The notes below the pieces were generated by a model, which was not told where the DNA came from, searched no databases, and worked only from the letters and a program-made list of their open reading frames with translations. The position numbers and the translations under genes are program-made. Below, piece after piece: positions 1-32,200 of a DNA stretch of 36,455 bases. This DNA is from Planctomycetaceae bacterium. Its GTDB lineage: Bacteria; Planctomycetota; Planctomycetia; Planctomycetales; Planctomycetaceae. The stretch lies in assembly GCA_900299185.1 (NCBI GenBank), contig OMIV01000257.1, positions 1 to 36,455 of the forward strand. Direction: 5' to 3'. Position 1 is the stretch's first letter. Each line of letters starts with the position of its first letter.

Positions 1-32
1 CTCGTGGGCTCGGAGATGTGTATAAGAGACAG
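1..32 (+). other. Illumina Nextera adapter remnant (non-genomic)
   Basis: The first 32 bases match the Nextera read-2 transposase adapter from memory, lacking only its first two bases, and end in the mosaic-end sequence ATGTGTATAAGAGACAG. The adapter creates spurious starts in two frames, giving peptides beginning MYKRQ and MCIRDR, both familiar contamination signatures. Genomic sequence begins at base 33. Confidence 0.97.
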
Positions 33-101
33 ACGTTGCTCCATGGCGGCGCAGAAGTGGCGGCAACTGATCCCGACACCAAGACGTTCGTCGGACTTGC
101 G

Positions 102-1787
102 ATGGAGAGCGAGACTTCCGCAGTCGGCGTCCAGGTGGGGCAAAAGATTGGGAAGTATGAGATCCGCGCCCCGCTCGGAACCGGTGGGATGGGGAGTGTC
201 TTCCTGGCGTTCGATCCACTGATCCAACGCGAAGTCGCGATTAAGGTTCTTTCTCCGGACCTGAGCAGTTCTCCGAGTGCCTTGCAGCGGTTTCTGGGTG
301 AAGCGCGAGCGATCGGACGACTCAATCATCCGAATGTCGTCTCGATCTATGACATCGATCAATGGAATGGCCAGTATTATCTGGTGATGGAACTGCTGCC
401 CGGAGGCAGCGTTGCCGATCAAGTCAGTAAATCTGGTCGATTGCCGTGGCCGGGGGCGTGCCGAATGATTGCTCAGGCAGCACGCGGGCTGGTGGCGGCC
501 CATCAATCGGGGATGATTCACCGTGATATCAAGCCCGAGAATCTGATGCTGACAAACGACGGGATTGTCAAAGTCGTTGACTTTGGACTCTCAAAGCTCC
601 TTAATGCTTCCAACCACCCCCATGACGCGGTTACCAAGGCAGGCCAGATTCTCGGGACTCCCCAGTACATGAGTCCTGAGCAGTTCGAGGCAGAGAATAT
701 CGATGCTCGCACCGATATCTACAGCCTGGGAGCCACCCTGTTTCGCTTGCTAACGGCCCGATTCCCGTATCACGATTGCAGCTCGATCGTTCAGGTGATG
801 ACGGCTCACATGACCAAGGCTTCCCCAGTTCCGTCAGAATTTGAGCCGACAACGCCTGTTGAGTGCGATCGGATCGTTGCCAAAGCCATGGCGAAGAATC
901 CTGCGGACCGATACCAAACCTGTTTGGACCTCGCCAGTGATCTTGACATGCTGCTCCATGGAAAGGCCACGGTCGCGTTCGACTCGACCATTATTGACCC
1001 CGCCATTGTTGACCGTCCATTGAAGACAGTGTTGATCGTGGAGCCCTCCAAGCTGCAAGGTCTAATGCTGCGAAACGCCTTCGAACAGGTCTGTCCGCAG
1101 GCCGTCCACCTCGTTGGCAGCATTGACGCTGTCCGGCATGCGATTGCCAGGACGACTCCCGACCTGCTGCTTACATCCATGCAGTTACCCGATGGGCAGG
1201 GGCTGGAACTGCTACAGGAACTTTGTCGACAGCCGCAGTTCCATCAATCGACGTTCGTGCTGAATTCGAGTGATTCGGCCCTTGAGAGCCTTGCCGCCGC
1301 AGGGCAGGCTGCCACCCTTATTCTGACGCCGAAAAAAGTTCGCCCCGAAGAGATTTTGAGTGTCGTCCATGCGACGGGCCCGAGCGTTATCACCACGGGC
1401 CAGCTGGCCGTTCCTATCGACCCGACGTCGGTGCGGTTGCGGATTATTCTCGATTCCGGTCGCGTTCCCGATGTGCTGGCTGACCTGATTCGGGAACTGA
1501 GCCTGCTCGATGTGGACGTTTGCGTCTCGCCCCAGACGTTCGAACCTTCGGCCCCGCGCGCGGACCTAGTACTGATGCTGCGACAATCAGACCACGACGT
1601 GGCAGGTCCCCAGTGTGCCTCGTGGATTGAACATGCTGCAGATTGGGGAACGATCGTGGCAGCTGTGCAGGTCAGCACGGAAAAGCTGTTCCTTCGCGCA
1701 ATCCGGCGGAAGGGGATTGTGGCGATTTGTCAACGAGAACTGATCGCCCAACGCTTGGTCTGTTTATTCCAAGTTTGCCGGTCCTGA
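102..1787 (+). CDS. Ser/Thr protein kinase fused to degenerate receiver-like domains (5' end uncertain)
   Basis: A Hanks-type Ser/Thr kinase of 561 residues counted from ATG 102. The kinase domain spans about residues 19-285, with glycine loop GTGGMG (26-31), catalytic lysine K48, HRDIKPEN (140-147), DFG (160-162) and GTPQYMSPEQ (185-194), so it should be active. Residues about 308-425 look like a response-regulator receiver, but the phosphoacceptor position is serine (S359, in LLTSMQLPDG) and the N-terminal acidic pair is VE, so it is probably a pseudo-receiver. A second, weaker receiver-like region covers about 443-555. No membrane segment is seen. The reading frame stays open back to base 33, where it meets adapter sequence, so the true start may lie outside the window; ATG 102 is the first start not built from adapter. 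It lies 191 bp before cheW on the same strand, which suggests an input to the chemotaxis cluster; that link is inferred. Confidence 0.88.
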   Translation: MESETSAVGVQVGQKIGKYEIRAPLGTGGMGSVFLAFDPLIQREVAIKVLSPDLSSSPSALQRFLGEARAIGRLNHPNVVSIYDIDQWNGQYYLVMELLPGGSVADQVSKSGRLPWPGACRMIAQAARGLVAAHQSGMIHRDIKPENLMLTNDGIVKVVDFGLSKLLNASNHPHDAVTKAGQILGTPQYMSPEQFEAENIDARTDIYSLGATLFRLLTARFPYHDCSSIVQVMTAHMTKASPVPSEFEPTTPVECDRIVAKAMAKNPADRYQTCLDLASDLDMLLHGKATVAFDSTIIDPAIVDRPLKTVLIVEPSKLQGLMLRNAFEQVCPQAVHLVGSIDAVRHAIARTTPDLLLTSMQLPDGQGLELLQELCRQPQFHQSTFVLNSSDSALESLAAAGQAATLILTPKKVRPEEILSVVHATGPSVITTGQLAVPIDPTSVRLRIILDSGRVPDVLADLIRELSLLDVDVCVSPQTFEPSAPRADLVLMLRQSDHDVAGPQCASWIEHAADWGTIVAAVQVSTEKLFLRAIRRKGIVAICQRELIAQRLVCLFQVCRS

Positions 1788-1978: not shown

Positions 1979-2515
1979 GTGGCAGAACAAGTAGAAGCCA
2001 GCTCCGCAGTTGCTGTCTCACGAGTAAACATGAAATCGTCGATGCAGTTCGTCGGGTTTCGCCTGGCGGATCAGGAATACGCATTTCGGATCGAACAGAT
2101 TCAGGAGATCCTGATTCCCGATCGCGTAACCCAAATGCCGCAAGTGGCCGATTACATTGAAGGCGTCAGCAATCTGCGTGGCACAATCATCCCGATCATC
2201 AATCTCCGTCGCCTGTTCGATCTGGAGCCGAAGGAGAAAGATGAAGAAACCCGGACCATCGTAGCTAATGTCGGTAGTAGAGTAATCGGCTGCACGGTGG
2301 ACGGCGTTACTCAGGTGATTCGCATCTCTCTCGAGCAGATCCAACCCGCTCCGGAGATTGTGAGATCCGAGGGCACGGCTTACATCGCAGGCTTCGCCAG
2401 ACTCGATAGTCGTGTGGTCGTACTACTGGAAATCGAAGAACTACTCCATCCATCGAAAATGGAGCATGTCAGACGGGTTGCTGCTCCGAGAGTTTCTATC
2501 GACCTCACAGCATAG
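1979..2515 (+). CDS. cheW: Chemotaxis coupling protein CheW
   Basis: Cytoplasmic adaptor that links chemoreceptors to the kinase CheA. The 178-residue product is one CheW domain: the stretch from MQFVGFRLADQEYAF, through EGVSNLRGTIIPIINLR, to the VDGVTQVIRI and AYIAGFARLDSRVVVLLEI segments is typical, and the length is close to the usual 150-180. The GTG start at 1979 is preceded by AAAGG at 1964-1968. An in-frame ATG at 2030 would drop 17 poorly conserved N-terminal residues and is a possible alternative. It is the first recognisable che gene of the cluster and lies 97 bp before the receptor gene. Family assignment is secure; the cognate receptor is inferred from adjacency. Confidence 0.95.
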   Translation: MAEQVEASSAVAVSRVNMKSSMQFVGFRLADQEYAFRIEQIQEILIPDRVTQMPQVADYIEGVSNLRGTIIPIINLRRLFDLEPKEKDEETRTIVANVGSRVIGCTVDGVTQVIRISLEQIQPAPEIVRSEGTAYIAGFARLDSRVVVLLEIEELLHPSKMEHVRRVAAPRVSIDLTA

Positions 2516-2606: not shown

Positions 2607-2612
2607 CCTGTG

Positions 2613-4355
2613 ATGGCTTTGGACAAACCGGCCCGATCGACGCGGAGCCGAAGTCGAGTGGCTACCGCGCGACCGAAGGTTGACTTTGAGCAACTCGTGG
2701 ACCATTCGTCGATCCGCGTCCTCATCGCGGACAGTGATCTCAACCTAGTTTATATGAATCCGGCTTCGGTGAAATTATTGACAGAGTTGCAGCACCTCCT
2801 GCGCTTTCCAGTCGATCAACTGATCGGCAAGTCGATCGATGTCTTCCACGCTAATCCTGAACGGGCGCGACGGATACTGAGCGATCCCAGGAACTTGCCA
2901 CATCACGCCGAGATTCAACTTGGCCCGGAGATCCTGTCCCTGAACGTCACGGCCCTCTTCGATGCTGACGGTGAATACTTCGGTCCCGTTGTGAATTGGG
3001 AACGCATCACCGAGCAAAGAATGCTCGAGTTGCAGCAGGCCGACTATGCGGCCCAGATGCAAGCGATTGGGCGAACCAACCTGACTATCCAATTCCTTCC
3101 CGATGGGACCGTGGTCTCGGCGAACGACAATTTTCTGAACGCTATGGGTTACACCCTCGAGGAAATACGAGGTCAGCACCATCGCATGTTCGTAGACCGG
3201 CAATTCGCCGAAACCAGCGAGTACCGTGAATTCTGGGCGAAGCTGCAACGTGGCGAGTTTATTGCCGATGACTTCAAGCGGATTACGAAAGCAGGCCGCG
3301 AAATCTGGATCCGGGCCGCCTACAACCCGATAGCTGACGCTCAGGGGAAGATCGCGAAGGTTATCAAATTCGCCACGGACATCACTGCAGCCGTTAAGGC
3401 ACAACACGAAACGCTGAGGAATCAGGAGGTACAGTGGGCAGCTGCGGAGGACCTGAAAAAACGGGTGACGCTGCTAACGAACGTCGTGGAAGCAATTGCC
3501 AATGGCGACCTCACGCAGCACGTTGACGATACCGGACACGACGACCTGAGCAGGCTGGCGGAAAGTGTCCGCCGGATGAGCAAGGACCTGCGTGACTTGA
3601 TCGGCCAGGTGATCGAATCAGCCGACCAGCAGAACGAAGGTGCTCAAGCTATCGCCGAAAATTCACAGAATCTGAGTGATTCCGCGCAGAAGCAAGCAGC
3701 CTCCGTCGAGCAAATGTCAGCCTCTGTCGAAGAACTGCTGAGGTCGATTAATGTCATTTCAGAAAGTGCGTCCATCTCGAAGCAGCAAGCCGCTTCGACA
3801 ACGAGCCTCGCGCAGTCCGGCGGCTCGTCGGTGAGCGAGGCGATTGTCGCCATGAAACTCATTCAGAAATCGAGCGAACAGATCAACGACATCATCCAAG
3901 TGATCAGCGAGATTGCCAGCCAGACGAATCTACTGGCACTCAATGCGGCGATCGAAGCGGCACGTGCTGGGGAGCACGGATTGGGTTTTGCCGTCGTCGC
4001 CGACGAAGTTCGTAAACTCGCCGAGCGTTCTAGTCTGGCGGCCAAAGAGATCACGCAACTCATCAAGGAATCCACACGGCGTGTTTCAGAGGGAGCGCAA
4101 TTATCCGAGAAGGTCGGGCATTCGCTGAATGCCATCGTGCAGGCGGTCGAGCAAACCGCCTGCGGCATCAATCGGATCGCTGAGTCGACTGAGGTTCAAG
4201 GAGAAAGTGCGAGGGAAGTTCAGTCGGCGATTCAAGCCGTCGGAAAGACGACCGAATTAAGTGCCGCAAGTTCAGAAGAATTGGCGGCGAGTGCCGAAGA
4301 GTTGGGGGCTCAAGCATCGGCCATGCGTGACTTGGTCAAGCGATTTAACGTATAG
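2613..4355 (+). CDS. Soluble methyl-accepting chemotaxis protein with two PAS domains
   Basis: Chemoreceptor of 580 residues. There is no signal peptide or membrane helix, so it should sense a cytoplasmic signal. Residues about 25-140 form a degenerate PAS domain. Residues about 150-265 form a clear second PAS with a C-terminal motif ending [10 protein letters not shown] short HAMP-like helical segment (about 285-330) follows, then the coiled-coil signalling domain with the highly conserved hairpin tip around residues 433-475 ([18 protein letters not shown], then [16 protein letters not shown]). Ala/Ser/Glu-rich repeats on both sides are candidate CheR/CheB methylation helices. The protein ends RFNV without a CheR-docking pentapeptide. 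ATG 2613 is chosen because GAGGAG (2601-2606) lies 6 nt upstream; the GTG at 2610 would be too close. PAS cofactor (heme, flavin or none) cannot be told from sequence alone. Confidence 0.95.
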
Positions 4356-4433: not shown

Positions 4434-5279
4434 GTGACCGTGGATCCCTCGCAATTAACGTCCCAGGAATTTGAGCAGTTTCAAACGCTCATTTTTCAAC
4501 TTTGCGGAATTCGGGTTCCGGAGAACAAAGTGACGTTGCTTAGCAATCGAATCCGCCGTCGCGTGAAGGCGACGGGGGTTCCCGACTTTCAGGCGTACCT
4601 GAAACTCCTGCGGTCTCCGGCCGGCCTTGTTGAACGAGAAGAGTTTCTGAGTGCCGTTACCACCAACGAAACTTCATTCTTCAGGACCGAGAGGCACTTC
4701 GAATGGCTCGGCACGACGTTTGTCGAGGAACTTCGCGAACAGGCGAGAGCTGGAACTCATTCTCTAAGCATCCGCGTCTGGTCGGCTGCGTGCAGTAGCG
4801 GCGAAGAACCCTACACGATTGCGATGTGCCTGGCCGAGAATCGCCCCAAGCTACCAAACTGGAAGATCGAAATTCATGGGACTGACATCAGTGAAACGGC
4901 GTTGACCAAAGCCCGCGCGGGTGTGTTCGGTGCCAAAGCGGAGTCAGAAATTCCTGAAAAACTGCGGACACGGTATTTCACCCGCGAAGCCGCGGATTCT
5001 GGCTGGAAAGTGAAGGCGTCGCTGAAGGAACTTGTCACTTTTTCGAATCACAACTTGATGCACCACAATCCACAGACGGGGTACGACTGCATCTTCATTC
5101 GCAACGTCTTGATCTATTTCAACCGGGAATCGAAACAAGTCGTGATTGAAAATTTAGTTCGCTCACTGGCCGACGGAGGGTATCTGCTGGTGGGGCCCTC
5201 GGAGGGAGTTTTTGACATGCTCGGAATGCTCCAGAAACGTTCCCCGTTCCTTTACCAAAAGAATCCAGAGCGTCGGTGA
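4434..5279 (+). CDS. cheR: Chemoreceptor glutamate methyltransferase CheR
   Basis: Methylates glutamates on chemoreceptors using S-adenosylmethionine, the adaptation reaction opposed by CheB. The 281-residue product has the N-terminal helical CheR domain (about 10-75), the NETSFFR motif near residue 79, the SAM-binding motif SAACSSGEEPYTIAM, and the C-terminal CIFIRNVLIYFN and GGYLLVGPSEGVF segments. All are standard for the family. GTG 4434 and GTG 4440 are both possible starts: an AAAGG at 4425-4429 lies 4 nt before the first and 10 nt before the second. It follows the receptor gene by 78 bp and ends 4 bp before the preferred cheA start, so the two are probably translationally coupled. Confidence 0.95.
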   Translation: MTVDPSQLTSQEFEQFQTLIFQLCGIRVPENKVTLLSNRIRRRVKATGVPDFQAYLKLLRSPAGLVEREEFLSAVTTNETSFFRTERHFEWLGTTFVEELREQARAGTHSLSIRVWSAACSSGEEPYTIAMCLAENRPKLPNWKIEIHGTDISETALTKARAGVFGAKAESEIPEKLRTRYFTREAADSGWKVKASLKELVTFSNHNLMHHNPQTGYDCIFIRNVLIYFNRESKQVVIENLVRSLADGGYLLVGPSEGVFDMLGMLQKRSPFLYQKNPERR

Positions 5280-5283
5280 CGGT

Positions 5284-7620
5284 ATGACCAATGACACCAC
5301 ATCATCGACGTCCGAACCCGATTCGCCCCTCTCGGACGAGATGGCGCAGTATTTACAAGTCTATATCGATGAGTCCGAAGAGGAACTCGATGGGCTTGTG
5401 GAAGCGATCCTGAAGCTGGAAGGCAACCCGCTGGAAGACGAATCGCTCCACAAAGCCTTTCGGTTGCTTCATTCCCTGAAGGGTTCTTCTGGAATGCTTG
5501 GTTTCGAGTTCGTGGGCAACTTCGCCCACGAACTCGAAGATCGATTCGAACGCTACCGATCCGGTGAGTTGTTCTTGGATCGCGAAACGACGACGTTGGT
5601 GCTGAAGTGTGTCGACTACTTTCGCATGTTCCTGGGACGCCTGAGGGTCGCCGATCTCAATCAAGGCGACCCGGCGAACTTGCTCCACGAACTGAAAGAA
5701 GTCGAACATCGCCGATCCTTGCTCGCGCAGGCACCTGCCGCGCCGAACACGCCGATTGTGCCACCGCCTATTACGATATCCGGTGGTCTAAAACTGGTAG
5801 TCCGGTTTCGTCCCGGGCTGCAGTTGGCCGATTTGAAAGCCCGCCTCATTGTCTCACGCTTGTCATCGATCGGTGAAATTATCGCCTGCGATCCGCCAAT
5901 TGATGATGCACAAAGCTTCGACGAGCTATCGCTCTTCTCGCTCACGTTAGTGACTGATCGAAAGATCGAGGAAGTTCGCAAAATCGCCAACGTCGATGGC
6001 GTCGAATCGATCGAGATTCGAGGTCACGAGGTCTCCGCCCAACAGTTGGCCGCCATCCCGTCGCCTGCAGAGCCAGTCGCGCCGCAACAATCGCCCACCC
6101 AGATCGCGGCCCCAGTCAATGTGGGATCACCTGCTATTCCTCCTCCGCCGGACGTATCACCGCCAGGACCTCTCCAAGCTAATCCAGAAACGTCCGATGC
6201 TACGCCGCAAGCCAGCGAAACTTTACGAGTCGACATTGGACGCCTTGATCGCCTAATGAACCTTACAGGAGAACTCATTGTTGCCAATGCACGGTTCTCC
6301 CAAATCGCTACGGAATTGAGTCCGCTGTTCCGGCAGAGCGCCGTCTTTAAGAAGTCGAGGGAGCTCACGGATCGTCTGCGCGAGCGATTTGAGAACCTTC
6401 GTCAATCTCTGAGTCAACCATTGCAAACCGACGATGCATGGGCTCAGGTGTCACAGGGACTGGAAGAAGATCTGGAAGCGCTGGATCGTCAATCGGAACT
6501 TTGGGCGGAGGGATATCGCCACTTCGCGGGCATCAGCGAAGCGGTTGACCAGTTGACGCGAGTTTCCAAGAACCTGCAGCGGGGCGTGTTGAACACTCGC
6601 ATGGTTCCGGTGGGACCGCTGTTCAACCGCTTCAAACGTGTGATTCGCGACTTATCGACGGAACGACGAAAACAGATCCAGCTGATTATCCGCGGCGAAA
6701 AGACGGAACTCGACAAGCGGATGATCGACGCGCTGGGCGATCCGCTGCTGCATCTCGTCCGCAATTCCATTGATCACGGCTTGGAAAGACCAGAGCAACG
6801 ACAGACGGCGGGAAAACCGGCTGTCGGTACGATCATTCTCGAAGCGGCTCACCGGGGTAACAGTGTCTGGATCACGGTTCGCGACGACGGCGCAGGCATC
6901 AACACCGACAAGATTCGAGCTCGTATCGTTAAGCGAGGCCTCGCCAGCCCTGCTGTCGCGAAGGAAATGACGGACGCTCAGGCGATTGGCCATATCTGGC
7001 ACCCCGGCTTCAGCACGGCAGAGACAGTGACCGAGATCTCGGGCCGCGGGGTCGGGATGGATATCGTTCGCAACGCGATTTCTGACCTGAGTGGCACAAT
7101 CGAAGTTGCCTCTTCGCCGAGTGTAGGGACCACGTTCACTATCCGGCTGCCATCGACTCTGGCGATTATTCACTGCCTGATGATGCGCTATCGGAACGAC
7201 TTCTTTTCGATCCCACTCGATGATGTTCGCGAAATCGTTTCCATCCCTCGGGTGCAGATTCACTCGGTCCATCGTCACGTGACTATTGATGTTCGAGGCG
7301 AACTGATTCCCCTGGTCAGTATGAAGGGCGTTTTTAAGTGGGCGACGATTGCCGATTCCTCCGAATCCTCGGTTGCGAGTGCGTCTCGGACCGTGAATAT
7401 CGTCGTTATTCACTCGCGCGGGAAAACGCTGGGGCTGGCAGTCGATTCCCTGGTGGGACGCGCCGATCTGGTTGTTAAGACCTTGGCCGAGAACTTTCAA
7501 CCCGTCCGCGGTCTGTCCGGAGCCAGCATTCTGGGAGACGGTGCCGTCTGCCTGATGCTCGATTCAGCGGCATTGATCGAACTTGCCGCGGACCGAACTG
7601 CGTCAGCCACTTTCCAATAG
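5284..7620 (+). CDS. cheA: Chemotaxis histidine kinase CheA
   Basis: Receptor-controlled histidine kinase that phosphorylates CheY and CheB. The 778-residue product has a P1 Hpt domain (about 20-125) with phospho-accepting H63 in HSLKGSSGMLG. A P2-like response-regulator docking segment follows (about 165-245), then a Pro/Ala-rich linker. The P3 dimerisation helices begin near SETLRVDIGRLDRLMNLTGE. The P4 ATPase domain carries the N box (HLVRNSIDHGLE), G1 (DDGAGI), GFST and G2 (GRGVGMDIV) motifs, and a C-terminal CheW-like P5 domain closes the protein. ATG 5284 is chosen because the upstream ATG at 5212 would overlap cheR by 68 bp and add 24 residues unlike an Hpt N-terminus. One Hpt, no receiver: a standard, non-hybrid CheA. 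Confidence 0.95.
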   Translation: MTNDTTSSTSEPDSPLSDEMAQYLQVYIDESEEELDGLVEAILKLEGNPLEDESLHKAFRLLHSLKGSSGMLGFEFVGNFAHELEDRFERYRSGELFLDRETTTLVLKCVDYFRMFLGRLRVADLNQGDPANLLHELKEVEHRRSLLAQAPAAPNTPIVPPPITISGGLKLVVRFRPGLQLADLKARLIVSRLSSIGEIIACDPPIDDAQSFDELSLFSLTLVTDRKIEEVRKIANVDGVESIEIRGHEVSAQQLAAIPSPAEPVAPQQSPTQIAAPVNVGSPAIPPPPDVSPPGPLQANPETSDATPQASETLRVDIGRLDRLMNLTGELIVANARFSQIATELSPLFRQSAVFKKSRELTDRLRERFENLRQSLSQPLQTDDAWAQVSQGLEEDLEALDRQSELWAEGYRHFAGISEAVDQLTRVSKNLQRGVLNTRMVPVGPLFNRFKRVIRDLSTERRKQIQLIIRGEKTELDKRMIDALGDPLLHLVRNSIDHGLERPEQRQTAGKPAVGTIILEAAHRGNSVWITVRDDGAGINTDKIRARIVKRGLASPAVAKEMTDAQAIGHIWHPGFSTAETVTEISGRGVGMDIVRNAISDLSGTIEVASSPSVGTTFTIRLPSTLAIIHCLMMRYRNDFFSIPLDDVREIVSIPRVQIHSVHRHVTIDVRGELIPLVSMKGVFKWATIADSSESSVASASRTVNIVVIHSRGKTLGLAVDSLVGRADLVVKTLAENFQPVRGLSGASILGDGAVCLMLDSAALIELAADRTASATFQ

Positions 7621-7659: not shown

Positions 7660-8304
7660 GTGACCATGGAAGTTCCCACCTTCAACCCTCAACAGATAGC
7701 CCAGTTGACGAAGGCGTTTCACCAAGGAGCCGCCGAGGCGTCGGAAGCCCTGGCGAGATGGGTCAACGCGACTATCACGGTGTCCATCGACTCGGTCGAT
7801 CAATGCCCGCTCGATGTCGCCATCAGGGTCCTCGGCGAAGGCGACACAGGTGTCTGCATGTGCCTCATGGAAATGCAGGGCTCATTGACGGGGTACATGT
7901 TGCTAGCATTTGATGATGTCAGTGGTTGGGCGTTGTCTGATCTGCTGCTGGGACGACCGGCGCGAAGCACGGTCGAATGGGGCGATGTTGAGAATTCTTG
8001 CATGTTGGAGACGATGAATATTGCCGGAAGCTCTTATCTCAATGGAATCTCAAATGACCTGACGGTACGGGGCCGGTTGCAAGTCGAGTTGATTCCGTCC
8101 CCTCCCACGTTTTTGCGGGATTTTGCTGAGAGCCTGCTCCAAACAGCCTTCATGGATCAGGCCATCGCAAGCAGCAACGTGGTTTTCGCACAGACTCGAT
8201 TTAATCTGCGCGGCCAGGCTCTGCGTTGGACTTTCTTGCTGATACCGGATCACGCATCTTTGCAGCGACTGTCAGTCATCCTTGCGAATCTGCGTGACCA
8301 GTGA
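7660..8304 (+). CDS. cheC: CheC-family protein (probable CheY-P phosphatase)
   Basis: CheC/CheX/FliY-family protein of 214 residues. The family dephosphorylates CheY-P through a helix motif D/S-x3-E-x2-N. One copy is clear in SCMLETMNIAG, with a proline about 26 residues further on. The N-terminal copy, where a motif like DALKEIGNIGAG is expected, reads LTKAFHQGAAEASEAL and lacks the Glu/Asn pair, so only one of the two pseudo-symmetric sites looks functional. The next gene is CheD, the usual CheC partner, which supports CheC over CheX. GTG 7660 is chosen because AAGGAG (7646-7651) lies 8 nt upstream; ATG 7666 would be 14 nt away. A 39-bp gap separates it from cheA. Confidence 0.83.
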   Translation: MTMEVPTFNPQQIAQLTKAFHQGAAEASEALARWVNATITVSIDSVDQCPLDVAIRVLGEGDTGVCMCLMEMQGSLTGYMLLAFDDVSGWALSDLLLGRPARSTVEWGDVENSCMLETMNIAGSSYLNGISNDLTVRGRLQVELIPSPPTFLRDFAESLLQTAFMDQAIASSNVVFAQTRFNLRGQALRWTFLLIPDHASLQRLSVILANLRDQ

Positions 8305-8315
8305 GGAAGCCCCCG

Positions 8316-8813
8316 ATGCAAGGCACCCCTTTCAGCGGCTCCGACGGCCGAGTCGAACTAAAGATTGGTATCGGCGAGCTTGCTGTGATCCAAGAGACGG
8401 GACTGTTACGAACGTTGCTCGGGTCGTGTATCGGATTGGTTCTGCATGACCGACAGGCTCGTGTTGGTGGCCTGGCACATATTGTCCTACCGTCGTCCAA
8501 CGGCGATACGCGGGTGCCCGGTAAGTACGCAGATACCGCCCTGCCAGAACTGGTACGCCTCATTGAACGAGCGGGGGGCCAGCCCCGAAATCTGACCGCG
8601 AAAATAGCGGGGGGTGCTAATATGTTCTCGACCCTTAAGATGGCCGGCATCGGCGAGCTGAATTTGATTACGGTTCAGCAGTTGTTGCAGGATGTGCGAA
8701 TTCCTGTGGTAGGTCACCATTGTGGGGGGCAACAAGGCCGACGCATCGCCTATGACGTGAAGACGGGGGCGGAGACAGTAGAAATTATCGGCTGCCTGCC
8801 GATCGAATTGTGA
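8316..8813 (+). CDS. cheD: Chemoreceptor glutamine deamidase CheD
   Basis: Deamidates receptor glutamines to glutamates, making them methylatable, and forms a feedback pair with CheC. The 165-residue product has the catalytic cysteine C38 in LLGSCIGLVLHD and the catalytic histidine H55 in GGLAHIVLP, spaced as in characterised CheD proteins. A glycine-rich segment KIAGGANMF and a C-terminal GHHCGGQQGRRI segment are also family-typical. ATG 8316 is preferred because GAGGAA (8303-8308) lies 7 nt upstream. A GTG at 8301 overlapping the cheC stop is the longer alternative. The tight spacing after cheC fits co-expression. Confidence 0.94.
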   Translation: MQGTPFSGSDGRVELKIGIGELAVIQETGLLRTLLGSCIGLVLHDRQARVGGLAHIVLPSSNGDTRVPGKYADTALPELVRLIERAGGQPRNLTAKIAGGANMFSTLKMAGIGELNLITVQQLLQDVRIPVVGHHCGGQQGRRIAYDVKTGAETVEIIGCLPIEL

Positions 8814-8866: not shown

Positions 8867-9244
8867 ATGAAACGATTAATGATCGTCGATGACGCTTTGA
8901 TCATGCGAATGAAAATTCGCGAAACGGCAAGCAAGGCTGGTTGGACCGTCGTGGCAGAAGCCTCCACTGGTTGCGACGCTATCCGGTTGTTTGACGAACA
9001 CCGTCCCGATATGGTCACCCTCGACATGATAATGCCTGAGATGGATGGGTTGTCGGCCCTGAAAGGCATCCGGTCCCGGCATCCCGAGGCGGTCGTGGTG
9101 ATGATCAGTGCCGTAAGCCAGAAGGAAAATCTGCGCGAATGTATCTCAGCCGGGGCGATGGACTTTATCGTGAAACCGTTTGATCCTCAACAGCTGCAGG
9201 CATTCTTTGAACGGTTCGAACAGGGTACGGAAGAGATCGTGTGA
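8867..9244 (+). CDS. cheY: Chemotaxis response regulator CheY (single receiver domain)
   Basis: Stand-alone receiver of 125 residues. All active-site positions are present: acidic pair D8/D9 (IVDDA), phosphoacceptor D53 (VTLDMIMPEMDG), S81 at the Ser/Thr switch (MISAVS) and K103 (IVKPF). There is no output domain, so it should act by protein contact, as CheY does at the flagellar switch or another effector. Its place between cheD and cheB, and the adjoining cheC, indicate that CheA phosphorylates it and CheC dephosphorylates it. The stop codon is separated from the cheB ATG by a single base. Confidence 0.93.
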   Translation: MKRLMIVDDALIMRMKIRETASKAGWTVVAEASTGCDAIRLFDEHRPDMVTLDMIMPEMDGLSALKGIRSRHPEAVVVMISAVSQKENLRECISAGAMDFIVKPFDPQQLQAFFERFEQGTEEIV

Positions 9245-9245
9245 C

Positions 9246-10289
9246 ATGGCCCCGTTTCGCGTCGTCGTCGTGGATGATTCGGCCCTTTTTCGGGCGATGT
9301 TGCGCAATCTGTTGACGGACATTCCGAATTGCGAGATCGTCGCTAGTGTGGCAGATGGAACCACGGCGATCGAGAAGATCACCGAGCTTCGTCCTGATCT
9401 CGTGACACTCGATGTCGAAATGCCAAGCATCAGCGGAATCGGCGTCCTGCGCGAGCTGAAACGAAGGTGTGTCAGTACCAAAGTTGTCATGATCAGCCGG
9501 TTTACCTCGGCTGGTGCACAGGTCACGACAGACGCGCTCATTGAGGGGGCATTCGACTTTATCCTGAAACCCTCCGGCAGCAATCTCCTCGAGAACAAAG
9601 CCTTTCTTCGCGCAGCACTGGAAGAGAGAATATCTGTGTTACGCGAGAACACATACACAGATGCCTCCGCGTCGACTGATCAAGTGACGACTACACCAAA
9701 ACCGGCCGTGGGATTGAAAGCGGTCGTGATTGGCTGCTCCACAGGTGGCCCTGACGCCTTGGCGCGTATTATTCCCGAACTTTCCGCCGACTTTCCGGTC
9801 CCGGTCTTCGTCGTTCAGCACATGCCCGCGGGATTCACAGCCTCGTTGGCAGCGCGGCTGAATCAGGCGAGCGAACTTGAAGTCCTCGAAGCCACTGACG
9901 GAATGAGAGCTTCTCCAGGCCGGGTCATCTTAGCACGTGGTGATCGACACCTCGGACTGCAGCATCACGCTCGCGATGGTGTAATTGCAAAACTGTCCGA
10001 CGCGCCTCACGAACACCGGTGCCGCCCTGCCGTAGATTACACTCTGCGCTCCGCCGTGGAACTATTTGATGCCCAACTGCTGGCGGTCATCCTGACCGGT
10101 ATGGGGTGCGACGGAACTGCCGGCTGCGAACTTGTCCACCAACGCGGCGGTTGTGTCCTCGCGCAGCATGAATTGGGTTGCGCAGTCTACGGCATGCCAA
10201 GGTCGGTCATTCGATCAGGCGTCGCCGACCAAATCGTCGAGTTGCCGCAAATCGCCAATGTGATCCAGCGCCAACTTGCTCGACGTTAG
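9246..10289 (+). CDS. cheB: Receptor methylesterase / response regulator CheB
   Basis: Removes methyl groups from receptor glutamates and can deamidate glutamines; activated by CheA phosphorylation. The 347-residue product has an N-terminal receiver with D10/D11, phosphoacceptor D56 (VTLDVEMPSISG) and K108 (FILKPSG). After a linker comes the methylesterase domain with the catalytic triad S165 (GCSTGGP), H192 (VVQHMPAGF) and D289 (LTGMGCDGTAG), almost exactly the E. coli CheB spacing. ATG 9246 starts one base after the cheY stop and gives the expected MAPFRVVVVDDS N-terminus; longer in-frame extension into cheY is rejected. It is the last gene of the cluster, and no clear terminator follows within 100 bp. 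Confidence 0.95.
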   Translation: MAPFRVVVVDDSALFRAMLRNLLTDIPNCEIVASVADGTTAIEKITELRPDLVTLDVEMPSISGIGVLRELKRRCVSTKVVMISRFTSAGAQVTTDALIEGAFDFILKPSGSNLLENKAFLRAALEERISVLRENTYTDASASTDQVTTTPKPAVGLKAVVIGCSTGGPDALARIIPELSADFPVPVFVVQHMPAGFTASLAARLNQASELEVLEATDGMRASPGRVILARGDRHLGLQHHARDGVIAKLSDAPHEHRCRPAVDYTLRSAVELFDAQLLAVILTGMGCDGTAGCELVHQRGGCVLAQHELGCAVYGMPRSVIRSGVADQIVELPQIANVIQRQLARR

Positions 10290-11694: not shown

Positions 11695-13914
11695 ATGGCG
11701 AAGCAAGCGGCGGCGGTGAGGTTGTTGGCAGGGACCAACAACCAGTCGGGAGATCTCTTCACGCGACTGTGTGGCGATCTGTTCTTTGCTCTGGGCTATG
11801 ACGACTTGCGGTATGACGTCGCGAACTCCGGCCGCGAGCTGGATCTGCAAGGTAAGCACCGGCTCGAACCGCGACGCGTCATTGCTGAGTGCAAGGCTCA
11901 GAAAGAGAAGAGTGGCGGCGACGCATTGAACAAGTTCTTCGGCTCGGTGAGCCGGGAACGGGATCGCGATAAGTCCTCAGCGGTGACGGCGTACTTCGTC
12001 TCTCTGAGTGGCTTCACCGAGACCGCGCGGACTCAAGAGGCGGAGACGAGTGATGGTCAGCGGCTGGTCTTGTTGGATGGGCGGCAGGTGGTTGATGAGC
12101 TGATTCGCATTCGAGTGATTGTCGATCGAGCGAAGGCACTGGAGCGAGCGGGGCGTTGTGCTCAGGCGGCGGGGCTCTCGGAGGCGGTCGCGACGCCGGA
12201 TGATGTCGAACTGCTCGGGCATGAACTGGGCTATGTCTGGGTCGTGTATTATTCGCTTCACAAGCAGAGGACTCACTTTGCCTTGATCCATGCGGACGGC
12301 AACGCACTGGGAGCGAGTGTCGCTCAGACCGTGATTGCTGCTGATCAACTCAAACGTGGGAAGTTGGACCAACTGCAATATCTGCCGCCGCCACCGACGG
12401 CGGCTGATCGGGTTCAGCAGAAGCAGGCTGCCGAGCAGCAGTATCGCCGCTGGGTTGTGACCGAGTTCGGAGACATTCAACTCGACGGTTTGCCGGCGGA
12501 TGCGGATCTGGCGGCGTTGCGGATTCGACTTGAACGTCTCTTCGTGCCACTGCGGTTGTCACGCACTTGGACGGAGCAGGCAGAAGACGGTCCAAAGCAA
12601 CGCGAATGGACCGGACCAGTCGGAAAGTTCCTTACCGAGCATTCGAGGTTTGCGTTGTTGGCCAAACCCGGAGGCGGCAAATCCACGTTGCTGAAGCGGT
12701 TGGCAGTGGCCTATGCCGAGGCTGACGCTGGGCGGCTGAATGAGTCGAACGACGGCTTGCCGCCGCGTGATTGGTTGCCGCTGTTGGTGCGATGTCGCGA
12801 GCTGAAAGAGCGGGCTGAGCGTCCCATTCGCGAATTGGTCGAAGGTCTGCCAAAGCACGCGGGCTTAAGCGACTTCGAACTCGGCTTGTTCGACGAGACG
12901 CTCGACGAGGCGCTCCGTGCCGGGAAGGTCCTGCTGCTGGTGGATGGGCTTGATGAGATTTCGAACGAAGGCGCGTTGAAGTCGTTCGTCAACAACCTGC
13001 GGACCTTCTTAGCGATGTTCCCGCAAGTGGCCTTTGTCGTGACGTCGCGTGAGGCAGGCTATCGGCATGTGGCCGGAGTGGTCGCCAGCATCTGTGCGCA
13101 GACGACACTAGCCCCGTTCAACAAGAACGATGTGCGGCGTTTGTGTGAAGCGTGGCATGTGCAAGTCGTCAAAGACACGGAGACCGTACGACGCGAGTCT
13201 CAGGAGTTGGCCACCAAGATATGGGAAAACGAGCGGATCCGAGCGTTGGCCGAGAATCCCTTGATGCTCACGACCTTGTTGGTGGTGCGACGCACGATCA
13301 ACGACCTGCCGACGAAGCGCGTCGAGCTGTATCGCGAGACGGTCAAAGTCTTCATCCGCACGTGGAACACGCAGGGGTTCGAGCCGATGGATTTGGAGGA
13401 TACTCAGGCTCAGCTCTCGTATGTCGCGTGCGCGATGCTGCAAGACGGCGTGCAGCAGATCGGTCGGCGGCGGCTGTTGGAGTTGCTCAAAGCGGCGCGT
13501 CGGGAACTGGATTCGGAGTTGGGTTTCACGAAGATCAGCCCCGACGACTTCATCGACCGCGTCGAGCACCGCAGCAGCTTGCTGATGCAGACGGGCCATG
13601 AGGTGCTCGAAGACAGGTTGCAACCGGTGTATGAATTTCGACACCTCACGTTTCAGGAGTACCTCGCCGCGCGCGGCTTCGTCGCAGAGCAATACCCCGG
13701 TCGCGCGGCAGAGCAGCCCCTCGTGGAACTCTTCGCGCCGCATTTCGAGGACGACCGTTGGAAAGAGGTCATCCCCTTGGCCGCCGTACTGGCGGGTCGG
13801 AAAGCGGAGCCACTGATTCGGCGTCTCACCGAGATTTGTGAAGGACGGGAATTGAAAAAAGGCTACCCGTCCTATGAAGACGTCACAGCACCGCCCGTTG
13901 TCATCCTTCGGTAA
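11695..13914 (+). CDS. NACHT/STAND ATPase with N-terminal restriction-endonuclease-like domain (defence candidate, stop-interrupted)
   Basis: A 739-residue NLR-like protein. Residues about 15-135 resemble an Mrr-type PD-(D/E)xK nuclease: D50 in GRELDLQG, then E65-C-K67 in VIAECKAQ. Residues about 310-480 are the NACHT ATPase with Walker A (KPGGGKST, around K329), Walker B (VLLLVDGLDEI, D417/D420/E421) and the sensor segment VVTSREAGY. The NPLMLTTLLVV and YEFRHLTFQEYLAARGF motifs typical of bacterial NACHT proteins follow. Bacterial NACHT proteins with nuclease effectors are known anti-phage systems that oligomerise when a C-terminal sensor is triggered; that role here is inferred. The frame ends at TAA 13912-13914, but the same frame continues as coding-like sequence to 14985. 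The sensor has therefore probably been cut off by a nonsense codon. No close neighbour of recognised defence function is seen. Confidence 0.85.
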   Translation: MAKQAAAVRLLAGTNNQSGDLFTRLCGDLFFALGYDDLRYDVANSGRELDLQGKHRLEPRRVIAECKAQKEKSGGDALNKFFGSVSRERDRDKSSAVTAYFVSLSGFTETARTQEAETSDGQRLVLLDGRQVVDELIRIRVIVDRAKALERAGRCAQAAGLSEAVATPDDVELLGHELGYVWVVYYSLHKQRTHFALIHADGNALGASVAQTVIAADQLKRGKLDQLQYLPPPPTAADRVQQKQAAEQQYRRWVVTEFGDIQLDGLPADADLAALRIRLERLFVPLRLSRTWTEQAEDGPKQREWTGPVGKFLTEHSRFALLAKPGGGKSTLLKRLAVAYAEADAGRLNESNDGLPPRDWLPLLVRCRELKERAERPIRELVEGLPKHAGLSDFELGLFDETLDEALRAGKVLLLVDGLDEISNEGALKSFVNNLRTFLAMFPQVAFVVTSREAGYRHVAGVVASICAQTTLAPFNKNDVRRLCEAWHVQVVKDTETVRRESQELATKIWENERIRALAENPLMLTTLLVVRRTINDLPTKRVELYRETVKVFIRTWNTQGFEPMDLEDTQAQLSYVACAMLQDGVQQIGRRRLLELLKAARRELDSELGFTKISPDDFIDRVEHRSSLLMQTGHEVLEDRLQPVYEFRHLTFQEYLAARGFVAEQYPGRAAEQPLVELFAPHFEDDRWKEVIPLAAVLAGRKAEPLIRRLTEICEGRELKKGYPSYEDVTAPPVVILR

Positions 13915-29292: not shown

Positions 29293-32200
29293 ATGACGAC
29301 TGCGTCTTCCGATCAGAACTCTTCTGGCGACTCTAATCCGGTGTCCGGCACCATCGTTCCTTCCATCGCTTCTCAGGATGAAACTCGTTTCGAGAATCCA
29401 ACTGTGACCGAACCGACAGCGATCAACGAAGCGACTCCGACTTCTTCGTCGCCGACCCGACAAGTCTTGAGTTCAGATCAGACCTCTGACAGACCCACGG
29501 CCAGCTCAAATGCTCCTTCGAGCACCGAAGAAATCGATCTGGGAGTCACTCGGATCGAAGCTCCGAAACTCAGTGGCGATTCTACGCAGACTTGGATTGA
29601 ACGCGCTGACGAACTCAAACATACACACGCTGAAGTAACGCTAAAGCCACAGTCAGTGTCAGCGTCGCAATCGATAACGAAGACTATGGGGACTGTGGTG
29701 TTGCGGCAGCGTGATGTAAGTCACGGAGTACGCGGCAGTGGTGGAGCGGCGGAGTACGAGATTGGACGCAGGCTAGGCGAAGGCGGGATGGGGGCGGTCT
29801 ATCAAGCGCGGCAAGGCGCGATCGATCGCACGGTGGCGTTGAAGGTCATCAAGCCCAAACTGAAGGACGCAGAGGAACTCAAAGAGAAGTTCGTCGCGGA
29901 AGCCATCATCACCGGCGATCTCGAACATCCCGGCATCGTTCCGATTTATGACCTCGGTACGAACGCGGCGGGTGATGTCTTCTATGCCATGAAGGAAGTG
30001 CGAGGGACGTCTTGGAAGGCCGTCATCGACGAGAAGTCCGAAGCCGAAAACCTTGAGATCCTGATGCGAGTGGCCGACGCGATTGCCTTTGCTCATTCGC
30101 GCGGCGTCGTTCATCGAGACCTCAAGCCCGACAACGTCATGATCGGCGCGTTCGGCGAAGTGCTGGTAATGGACTGGGGATTGGCCATGCCCACAGCGGC
30201 GTTTCCCAAAAAGGGCATCGCTTATGCACAGGGAGCGGCTGGTACTCCTTCTTACATGGCTCCCGAGATGGCTGCGGGCGACTCCAATCTTGTCGGACCA
30301 GCGAGCGACATCTATCTGTTGGGAGCGTTGCTGTTCCGCATCTTGACTGGCAACGCACCGCACACTGGTCGGCATGCGTTGGATTGCTTGTACGCCGCCC
30401 AACGCAACGAGTTCGTTCCCACCGATCGCAATGACGAGTTGATGCAGATCGCGCGACGGGCGATGGCTGCGAAGCCGGATGATCGCTACCGCACCGTTCA
30501 GGAATTTCAGTCGGCTGTGCGTGAGCATCAGGCTCATTCCGATAGTTTGCTGCTCACGAACTTGGCAGAAAATGAATGGCGAGCGGCGATCGACGGTGCG
30601 GAGTATCGCCGCTTCAAAGACGCACTGGCTGCGTTTAAAAATGCACTGCGACTTTGGGCTGAGAATCAGCGAGCGAAGACGGAATTGAAAGCGGCTCAGT
30701 TAGCTTATGCGAGAGCAGCATTGGAGCGAGGCGATCTGGATCTCGCGTCGCAACAACTTGATGCGCACGATTCCGAGCACGCCGAGTTATTGACCGTCAT
30801 CCGAGCAGCTCAACTTGAACGTGAAGCACAGCGGCATCGCGCACGACGCATGAAGCAACTGGCAGTCGGTTTAGCCGCAGCGGTGGTGCTCGTCGTCTCT
30901 ATTTCAAGCGCCTTGATCTATCGCTCGTGGCAACAGGAAGCACTGGCTCATGCAGAGGCGCTGCAGCGATTCAATGAATCTCAGGCGGCGATCAAACAGC
31001 TCACAGGCATCAGCCAGGACTTGGAATACTTTCCGCGTTTGCAAGGTGTGCGACAGAACTTGTTGGAGATGGCCGCGAAGCATTACCGCGAGCTGCATGA
31101 GCATCGCTCGAACGATCCCGACATGCAGTTGGCTACGGCTCAAGCGATGTTGCAACTGGGTGATGTGCGGTTGCTGTTGGCAGATCACAAGCAAGCTCAA
31201 GCCGCCTTCGAGAATGCGGCGGAATTGGCTAAGCCCCTGGCTCAAACGGCTCGCCGCAAGGATCTGAAACACGCAGCGAACTTAGCGTTGATCGCGAGTC
31301 GCTCGAAGCTTGCGGAATGCTCTATTCATCAAGGCGAGTACACCGCAGCCGAAGCGAACATCGCAGCGGGTCTCGAACAGGCAGAAGATTCCGGCGACCA
31401 ATCAGTGCTTGCCACCCGAGGCAGTCTGCTTCTGCAGCGGTCTCATTTGCAGAGGTTGCAAGGACGCTGGTCGGCTGCCGCTCAGGACATCTCGCAAGCT
31501 CAAGAGTTGTTCGAACGAGTGACCTCATCGGCGCGAGACAGCACCAACTCGGAATTGCTCAAAGACTGTCGCATCAACATGGCGTTGAGCTGCGATCAAC
31601 TCGCGCTGGTCGAAGAGCAGCTTGGTCAGTTGGAGCGCGCCGAACAGGCGTCGCAACGAGCCATCGCCATTTGGACTGACCTCAACGCCGATGCGCCGGA
31701 CGTGCCGACGTACTTAGAAGGCTTAGCATCGAGTCATGTGTTGCTGGGCAATATCCAGCGTGGCTTCGGTCACGATTCACTGCGATCCGCGCAGCAAGCG
31801 ATCAAAGCGTATGAGGCTCTCGTTCTCGCGCGGCCGGAAGTGCCGAAATATCAGTTTCAGCTCGCGACTGAGTTGCTCAACGTGGCTTATCTGCAACTGC
31901 GAGCGGGACGTATTTCGGATGCTCGCAATCTGGCGATCGACGCCACCAACAGGTGCGTGCGATTGGCCAATGAGTATCCCGAGGTCATCGACTATGCCGA
32001 TGCCGATGCCTCATCGAGATCCATCTTGGGCGAAGTACTGCGCGACTCCGGCGACTACGAACTTGCGGCCGGGAAGCTCGATGAAGCCATTGAACTCTTT
32101 GCCGAACGCGTCGCTCAATTCGCCGATGTGCCGAGCTATCGCGAACGACTGGCTGAGAGCTTGAACCTGCGAGCTCAAGTCGCGGCACTTAACAGAGACA

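Follow-up and report, generated by a model that had tools for sequence, protein, structure and literature searches.

A planctomycete Hanks-type kinase with an aspartate-less receiver tail, encoded beside chemotaxis genes, suggests a link between Ser/Thr and Che signalling

The window analyzed here is a stretch of 36,455 nucleotides that makes up contig C257 of a Planctomycetaceae genome (G000; 7.87 Mb in 383 contigs). At its left end lies a gene for a Ser/Thr kinase fused to receiver domains, which heads a chemotaxis cluster, as the initial annotation had stated. The start of cheW is 191 nt behind the kinase gene, and all genes follow one another on one strand in the order kinase-cheW-mcp-cheR-cheA-cheC-cheD-cheY-cheB (Table 1). 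The cheC assignment comes from NCBIfam, and no CheC match was obtained in Pfam for this product. Scanning the gap between the kinase gene and cheW for promoters and terminators yielded nothing above shuffled sequence. Further along the contig, an ORF at 11695-13914 carries a P-loop-like motif (KPGGGKSTLL), with an N-terminal stretch that we take to be nuclease-like, as judged from motifs. A second Hanks kinase domain is located at 29755-30486, within an open frame of 1257 aa.

Table 1. Features at the left end of the window and the evidence for each of them
Feature	Position	Strand	Evidence or remark
Sequencing-adapter remnant, presumably Nextera read-2 type	1..32	+	contig edge; non-genomic
Type A kinase-receiver gene, 5'-truncated	33..1787	+	open frame 3-1784; upstream homology with L010
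Hanks-type Ser/Thr kinase domain, residues 19-272	156..917	+	PF00069, 163.1 bits (cut-off 31.7)
Receiver 1, Asp-less, residues 310-422	1029..1367	+	PF00072, 33.4 bits (cut-off 30.2); model, fold match, alignment
S359 codon, phospho-Asp position of receiver 1	1176..1178	+	alignment
Receiver 2, decayed, about residues 446-561	1437..1784	+	HHalign to type B receiver 2
cheW	1979..2515	+	PF01584, 132.7 bits
mcp (two PAS stretches, HAMP, signalling domain)	2610..4355	+	PF00015, PF08448 (two stretches), PF00672
cheR	4434..5279	+	PF01739
cheA (Hpt, P2, dimerisation, ATPase, CheW domains)	5284..7620	+	Pfam; start chosen within open frame
cheC-like	7660..8304	+	NCBIfam CheC_Thtogales, 53.7 bits (below cut-off 250)
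cheD	8301..8813	+	PF03975
cheY, phosphorylation-site residues present (DDDSK)	8867..9244	+	PF00072, 101.6 bits
cheB	9249..10289	+	PF01339 and PF00072

The kinase frame first described, from 102 to 1787, is indeed open and translates into 561 aa without internal stops, but its start at 102 is doubtful and the gene lacks its 5' end at the contig edge. The latter follows from two observations: i) the first 32 bases are presumably adapter, as they match the Nextera read-2 sequence, and ii) homology extends upstream of the ATG at 102, where 'DPDTKTFVGLA' resembles 'SIDTKTIVGTE' of L010. The frame runs open back to base 3, and translation of the complete gene probably starts at another codon than the ATG at 102. 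Read in frame with the kinase, the adapter bases give 'VYKRQ', and such adapter residues are possible wherever frames run into contig ends.

By family match and catalytic residues, the encoded protein can be assigned to the Hanks-type Ser/Thr kinases. All catalytic residues are present (K48, E67, D142 of HRD, K144, N147 and D160 of DFG), and Lys, Glu, HRD Asp, Asn and DFG Asp are retained in 56 of 56 aligned kinases of the family described below. Together with a Pfam score over the cut-off, these intact motifs agree with the earlier view that the kinase is apparently active. Its best five named relatives came from four Schlesneria MAGs and one Planctomycetaceae MAG, in line with the planctomycete origin implied by the initial annotation.

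Behind the kinase domain, two receiver-like regions had been reported, and both indeed lack the phosphoacceptor. In receiver 1, the alignment puts Ser (S359) into the phospho-Asp column, as previously noted. The acidic pair, described as lost, is only half gone: the second residue is Pro (P315), but the first survives as Glu (E314). The complete set of site residues in the window reads EPSSK, where the Lys is uncertain for type A sequences, as the alignment needs a shift of two residues (TPKK versus KP). Residues 290-561 were modelled with AlphaFold2 from four sequences, with a mean pLDDT of only 61.8. In this model, receiver 1 (309-424) displays the (beta-alpha)5 order, with pLDDT of 72-83 in the first half and 40-71 in the second half. 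VIA-align placed TorR first (Z 15.9) and the receiver of FrzS second (Z 15.7), tied with many other receivers, and the Foldseek list was headed by PleD (E 1.8e-4), with receivers mixed with unrelated folds. A receiver fold is thus predicted for receiver 1, and the outcome that had been named as fatal to the initial annotation, a model devoid of such a fold, did not arise.

Receiver 2 had no Pfam match of its own. Its phospho-Asp position is occupied by Leu (site residues LDLQR), and its model is weak and only partly receiver-like: most strands and helices are there, helix 2 is absent and a late hairpin is present. In HHalign, the profile of type A receiver 2, the type to which the window belongs (see below), matched receiver 2 of type B with 87.3% (E 3.8e-6) and CheY with 2.7% (E 0.017). 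Since the profile fits type B and hardly CheY, we read receiver 2 of the window as a decayed receiver of the type B kind. As neither receiver has a conserved phospho-Asp site, the window protein is not a phosphorylatable response regulator.

To survey relatives, a profile covering the kinase domain and receiver 1 was run on 397 genomes of the class Planctomycetia. Four best candidates were scored per genome, and a match was regarded as full-length if it reached model position 400 or beyond of 415. At least 55 full-length kinase-receiver matches were found in at least 50 of the 397 genomes, which is a lower bound and not a prevalence. In 294 genomes of the phylum (21 within the class, 273 outside), searched at a strict cut-off of 1e-110, the only full-length matches were those in the window genome and in G077, both of the same family; outside the class, weaker relatives may fall short of this cut-off. 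Che proteins around the matches were then sought by BLASTP, the queries being taken from types A, B and C. Among the matches listed, 41 of 55 adjoin che genes. Of the other 14 listed, three run into a contig end no more than 600 nt downstream (G208:C240, G089, G378) and 11 are unlinked; a laxer search of the stretches around these 11 found no Che protein. Three of the unlinked listed matches have no alignable receiver 1 (G258, G397, G205), and eight have one (G002, G340, G130, G353, G287 with only 1.3 kb downstream, G279, G212, G107). The former three (L198, L199, L204) end in a C-terminal receiver with Gly at the phospho-Asp position, and the sequence retrieved around them contains no che gene.

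As a control, 62 loci that each span 8 kb or more were examined, and one of them had che-type genes, namely two MCP-like ORFs; these loci were taken by kinase domain from mixed phyla with unequal flanks, some of them may carry receivers, and 13 of 75 loci were skipped as shorter than 8 kb. In the window genome itself, three of 62 kinase matches, some of them pieces of a single gene, have a CheW-domain gene no further than about 5 kb away. One of these is the kinase of the window, and the other two frames have no receiver. At one locus there (L226, G000:C271, 1039-6661), about 3 kb separate a Hanks kinase gene from a cheW-like gene downstream of it, and a receiver domain is encoded by an ORF of its own in the interval. 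Orthologues that are never found near che genes had been named as a further outcome that would speak against the initial annotation, and relatives do adjoin che genes.

The matches could be sorted into types by their tails and surroundings. Type A consists of the kinase, a dead receiver 1 and a dead receiver 2, in a cluster with its own cheY. The gene order of the window recurs in nine of the 11 type A copies (window genome, G034, G202, G208, G272, G225, G194, G365, G077). Of these nine, G202 is cut after cheY, while two are broken inside the kinase gene (G208, G272), so that in these two the linkage is by position only. The remaining type A copies are L009, located at a contig end, and an orphan in G002. 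Type B comprises the kinase, a dead receiver 1 and a live receiver 2, and a separate cheY is mostly absent. Its neighbours are cheA, mcp, cheW and cheB, in many cases also cheR; their order varies, and most of them lie downstream. G034, apparently the Schlesneria MAG of L010, contains both type A and type B. Types C and D bear receiver 1 only, receiver 2 being absent. In type C, a CheA with its own receiver follows; type D sits on the cheR side of the cluster, and a separate cheY is present.

Receiver 1 is uniform in what it lacks. In 55 aligned copies, the phospho-Asp column holds Ser (32), Ala (15), Thr (7) or Gly (1) and never Asp. The Asp-less state is therefore shared and represents neither a quirk of the window nor a sequencing error. 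At the first acidic position, 52 of 55 copies have Glu and three have Asp, the Ser/Thr position is retained in 51 of 55, and the motif E-x-S-R/K is conserved across types. With the predicted fold present and the phospho-Asp replaced, receiver 1 can be classified as an aspartate-less receiver (ALR). According to the available text of PMC4395418, ALR domains often retain the first acidic residue and often lose the second, while Lys and Ser/Thr are often kept.

We next consider the origin of this architecture. A quick tree of kinase domains was computed from 29 of the 56 family rows and 44 other kinases. Types A and C sit among planctomycete kinases without receiver tails, and types B, D and E are found elsewhere; tails longer than 60 aa of the 44 other kinases contained no receiver. 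A single origin of the receiver-bearing kinases, as judged by kinase domain, was rejected (29 versus 44 sequences, -144.7 log units, p-AU 7.8e-55). Types A and C as one group were not rejected (p 0.71), this group having been named after the tree was seen. When 60 receivers were placed in a tree, the 28 rows for receiver 1 (types A to D) fell on one side of a branch with a support of 83, which is not strong. Similarly, the receiver 1 profile of type A was closer to that of type B (E 1.6e-28) than to CheY (E 1.1e-13), a similarity that the shared loss of Asp could inflate. The simplest account of these sequence comparisons is that the same receiver tail resides on two kinase lineages, both beside che genes, and the Asp-less receiver 1 is probably old. 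The tails of L093, L094, L096 and L099, which are among the receiver-less kinases nearest type A, look, by eye, like periplasmic ligand-binding domains.

Finally, we examined whether the state of receiver 2 corresponds to the presence of cheY. The pattern was scored by hand on 33 of the 41 che-linked listed rows, with cut clusters dropped (L119, L120, L160, L168, L170, L171, L186, L189). A live receiver 2 occurred in 14 rows without any further receiver besides CheB and in five rows with one (L180, L185, L188, L195, L191); for a dead or absent receiver 2, the corresponding numbers were 0 and 14 (Fisher p 1.5e-5, kinship ignored). Here, type C was scored as possessing a further receiver, namely that on CheA, and L191 was scored likewise though partial, which is conservative. 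In three of the 14 rows (L172, L187, L192), another receiver-bearing ORF is located about 2.6-6 kb upstream of the kinase, and counting these as 'with' gives 11 versus 8 (Fisher 4.9e-4). The stretch of L163 ends inside cheR and that of L169 at cheA, and a cheY further on is possible there. With kinship allowed for, the pattern cannot be significant, because the tree needs only two changes of receiver 2 state. The reciprocity between receiver 2 and cheY is thus suggestive. It is the pattern expected if CheY's role in type B is filled by receiver 2, and given the kinship it does not constitute independent evidence.

From these observations, a model can be proposed in which the Hanks kinase is dedicated to the Che pathway and its C-terminal receiver tail serves as a conserved module coupling it to the Che machinery. 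In type B, CheA would phosphorylate the intact receiver 2 and thereby control the kinase, which would act as output in place of CheY. In type A, receiver 2 would have decayed and the separate CheY would take the phosphoryl group. The two pseudo-receivers might then keep the kinase at the Che complex through contacts between proteins, and the kinase could modify Che proteins, or others further downstream, by Ser/Thr phosphorylation, with no need for Asp phosphorylation in its tail. We consider the chances of this reading, with a live output in type B and phosphorylation-independent coupling in type A, to be about even. In its fuller historical form, an Asp-less tail would have become joined to two kinase lineages and placed next to che genes, the Ser/Thr kinase would be the pathway output in planctomycete chemosensing, the live receiver 2 would replace CheY, and the type A tail would now be a phosphorylation-free adaptor; we put this forward tentatively, as somewhat less than an even bet.

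The model competes with several other explanations. First, the kinase might be a mere neighbour of the che genes, co-transcribed with them or simply near them, while its tail and targets serve a different pathway. The orphan in G002 and the seven other unlinked copies that bear receiver 1 speak for this and indicate that genomes can encode the kinase without che genes nearby. In G002, a one-contig genome, the type A kinase (C1:5896367-5898040; L090, L122, L125; 53% identity) lies in a stretch of 32 kb devoid of che genes, and a type A cheA was found nowhere in the genome; this orphan offers a natural experiment on the kinase without its cluster. Yet linkage was observed in 41 of the 55 listed matches versus one of the 62 control loci, it is shared by kinases of more than one lineage, and it recurs even though cluster gene orders differ among the types. 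We therefore think it unlikely that proximity is all there is, and by its conserved position in che clusters, with exceptions, the kinase is a candidate component of the Che system, though proximity of genes does not amount to interaction of their products. The link between Ser/Thr kinase and che genes drawn by the initial annotation is in this respect supported by recurrence, but both mechanisms which it offered fare less well.

One of these mechanisms assumed docking on the P2 domain of CheA. The pseudo-receivers would mimic CheY there and compete with, or tune, the phosphorylation of CheY and CheB. For the window this may hold, as the fold of receiver 1 appears to be retained and P2 was recognized by Pfam in all three type A CheAs tested. 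However, P2 was found in none of ten type B CheAs, which have two CheW stretches each, and not in the single type C CheA, although P2 in some CheAs is perhaps too divergent for Pfam. Since types B and C possess the Asp-less receiver and P2 was not found in them, docking on P2 fails to explain the whole family, and as a general reason for the fusion it is unsupported. We regard this alternative as rather doubtful.

Alternatively, the receiver tail could be a functionless, degenerate remnant on its way to loss. The decay of receiver 2 in ten of ten type A sequences and its absence from types C and D would fit such a course; outside type A, the live signature DDDTK is present in 37 of 40 sequences. 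On the other hand, receiver 1 has been kept across types, with its motif and predicted fold, and even in the dead receiver 2 of type A, some positions do not vary between the compared sequences, which makes a mere remnant very improbable.

The second mechanism of the initial annotation would have S359 as a possible substrate of its own kinase; phosphoserine might then mimic phospho-Asp. Ser or Thr indeed occupies this column in 39 of 55 aligned copies, and the available text of Maule et al. 2015 (PMC4395418) speculates on such modification of Ser-type Asp-less receivers; but the residue lies in the active pocket of the receiver fold, and type A has Ser in five of 11 copies and Ala in six, so that a phosphosite is not obligatory, a general conserved phosphosite was rejected on account of the Ser/Ala/Thr/Gly variation, and we consider autophosphorylation the least probable explanation of all.

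Returning to the model of a Che-dedicated kinase with a coupling tail, its parts can be compared with known systems. Like the ALRs described in the available text of PMC4395418, receiver 1 combines a predicted receiver fold with the lack of phospho-Asp; unlike the ALRs as presented there, it is situated C-terminally to a kinase alone, is conserved family-wide and linked to che clusters. The same text lists the receiver of FrzS from Myxococcus xanthus as Asp-less, with Ala at the site. This is the receiver that ranked among the closest folds to receiver 1 of the window. FrzS is a social motility protein according to its PDB title. It is not known to carry a kinase domain. The kinase of the window also resembles response regulators with a Ser/Thr kinase output, in which a receiver and a Hanks kinase share one chain; type B would be phosphorylatable in the same manner, whereas both receivers of the window lack phospho-Asp.

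Kinases acting near chemoreceptors have been proposed as well. A receiver-bearing PP2C-STYK of Campylobacterota is suggested, in the part of PMC9239204 available, to act on a chemoreceptor via a STAS protein, a proposal that by the paper's own account awaits experimental verification. As far as that part goes, the STAS-partner kinases differ from ours in that they are of the histidine-kinase-like ATPase kind and not Hanks kinases, carry the receiver N-terminally, and come from another lineage with other partners. In Corallococcus coralloides, an ABC1 kinase-like gene is found in che cluster Cc-5 and in no other cluster compared, according to the available text of PMC6194562. Here, too, a member of the eukaryote-like kinase superfamily is combined with che genes, but the kinase is of the ABC1 type and the same text names no receiver on it. 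Variation within CheA, comprising CheA-receiver hybrids and CheAs without P2, is described in the accessible text of PMC10782961 and is paralleled by the receiver-bearing CheA of type C and the P2-less CheAs of types B and C; no linked Ser/Thr kinase is named in that text. Among titles and openings of abstracts, mostly from outside subscription journals, we found no paper on class-wide planctomycete che linkage, on the contrast of live and dead receiver 2 or on two kinase lineages. 

His-Asp signalling of the Che type and Ser/Thr kinase signalling are usually studied apart, and the gene arrangement described here suggests a direct link between these two normally separate systems. Should the kinase prove to be a branch of the Che pathway, planctomycetes would offer a natural and testable circuit joining both. 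Matched designs, with live receivers in type B and dead ones in type A, could then separate Asp phosphorylation from docking, and Asp-less receivers of this kind would gain concrete partners. As a last observation, the assemblies of G208 (L012/L219) and G272 (L013/L220) break within the type A kinase gene, and the contig of the window starts there; perhaps many similar kinases confuse assembly at this site.
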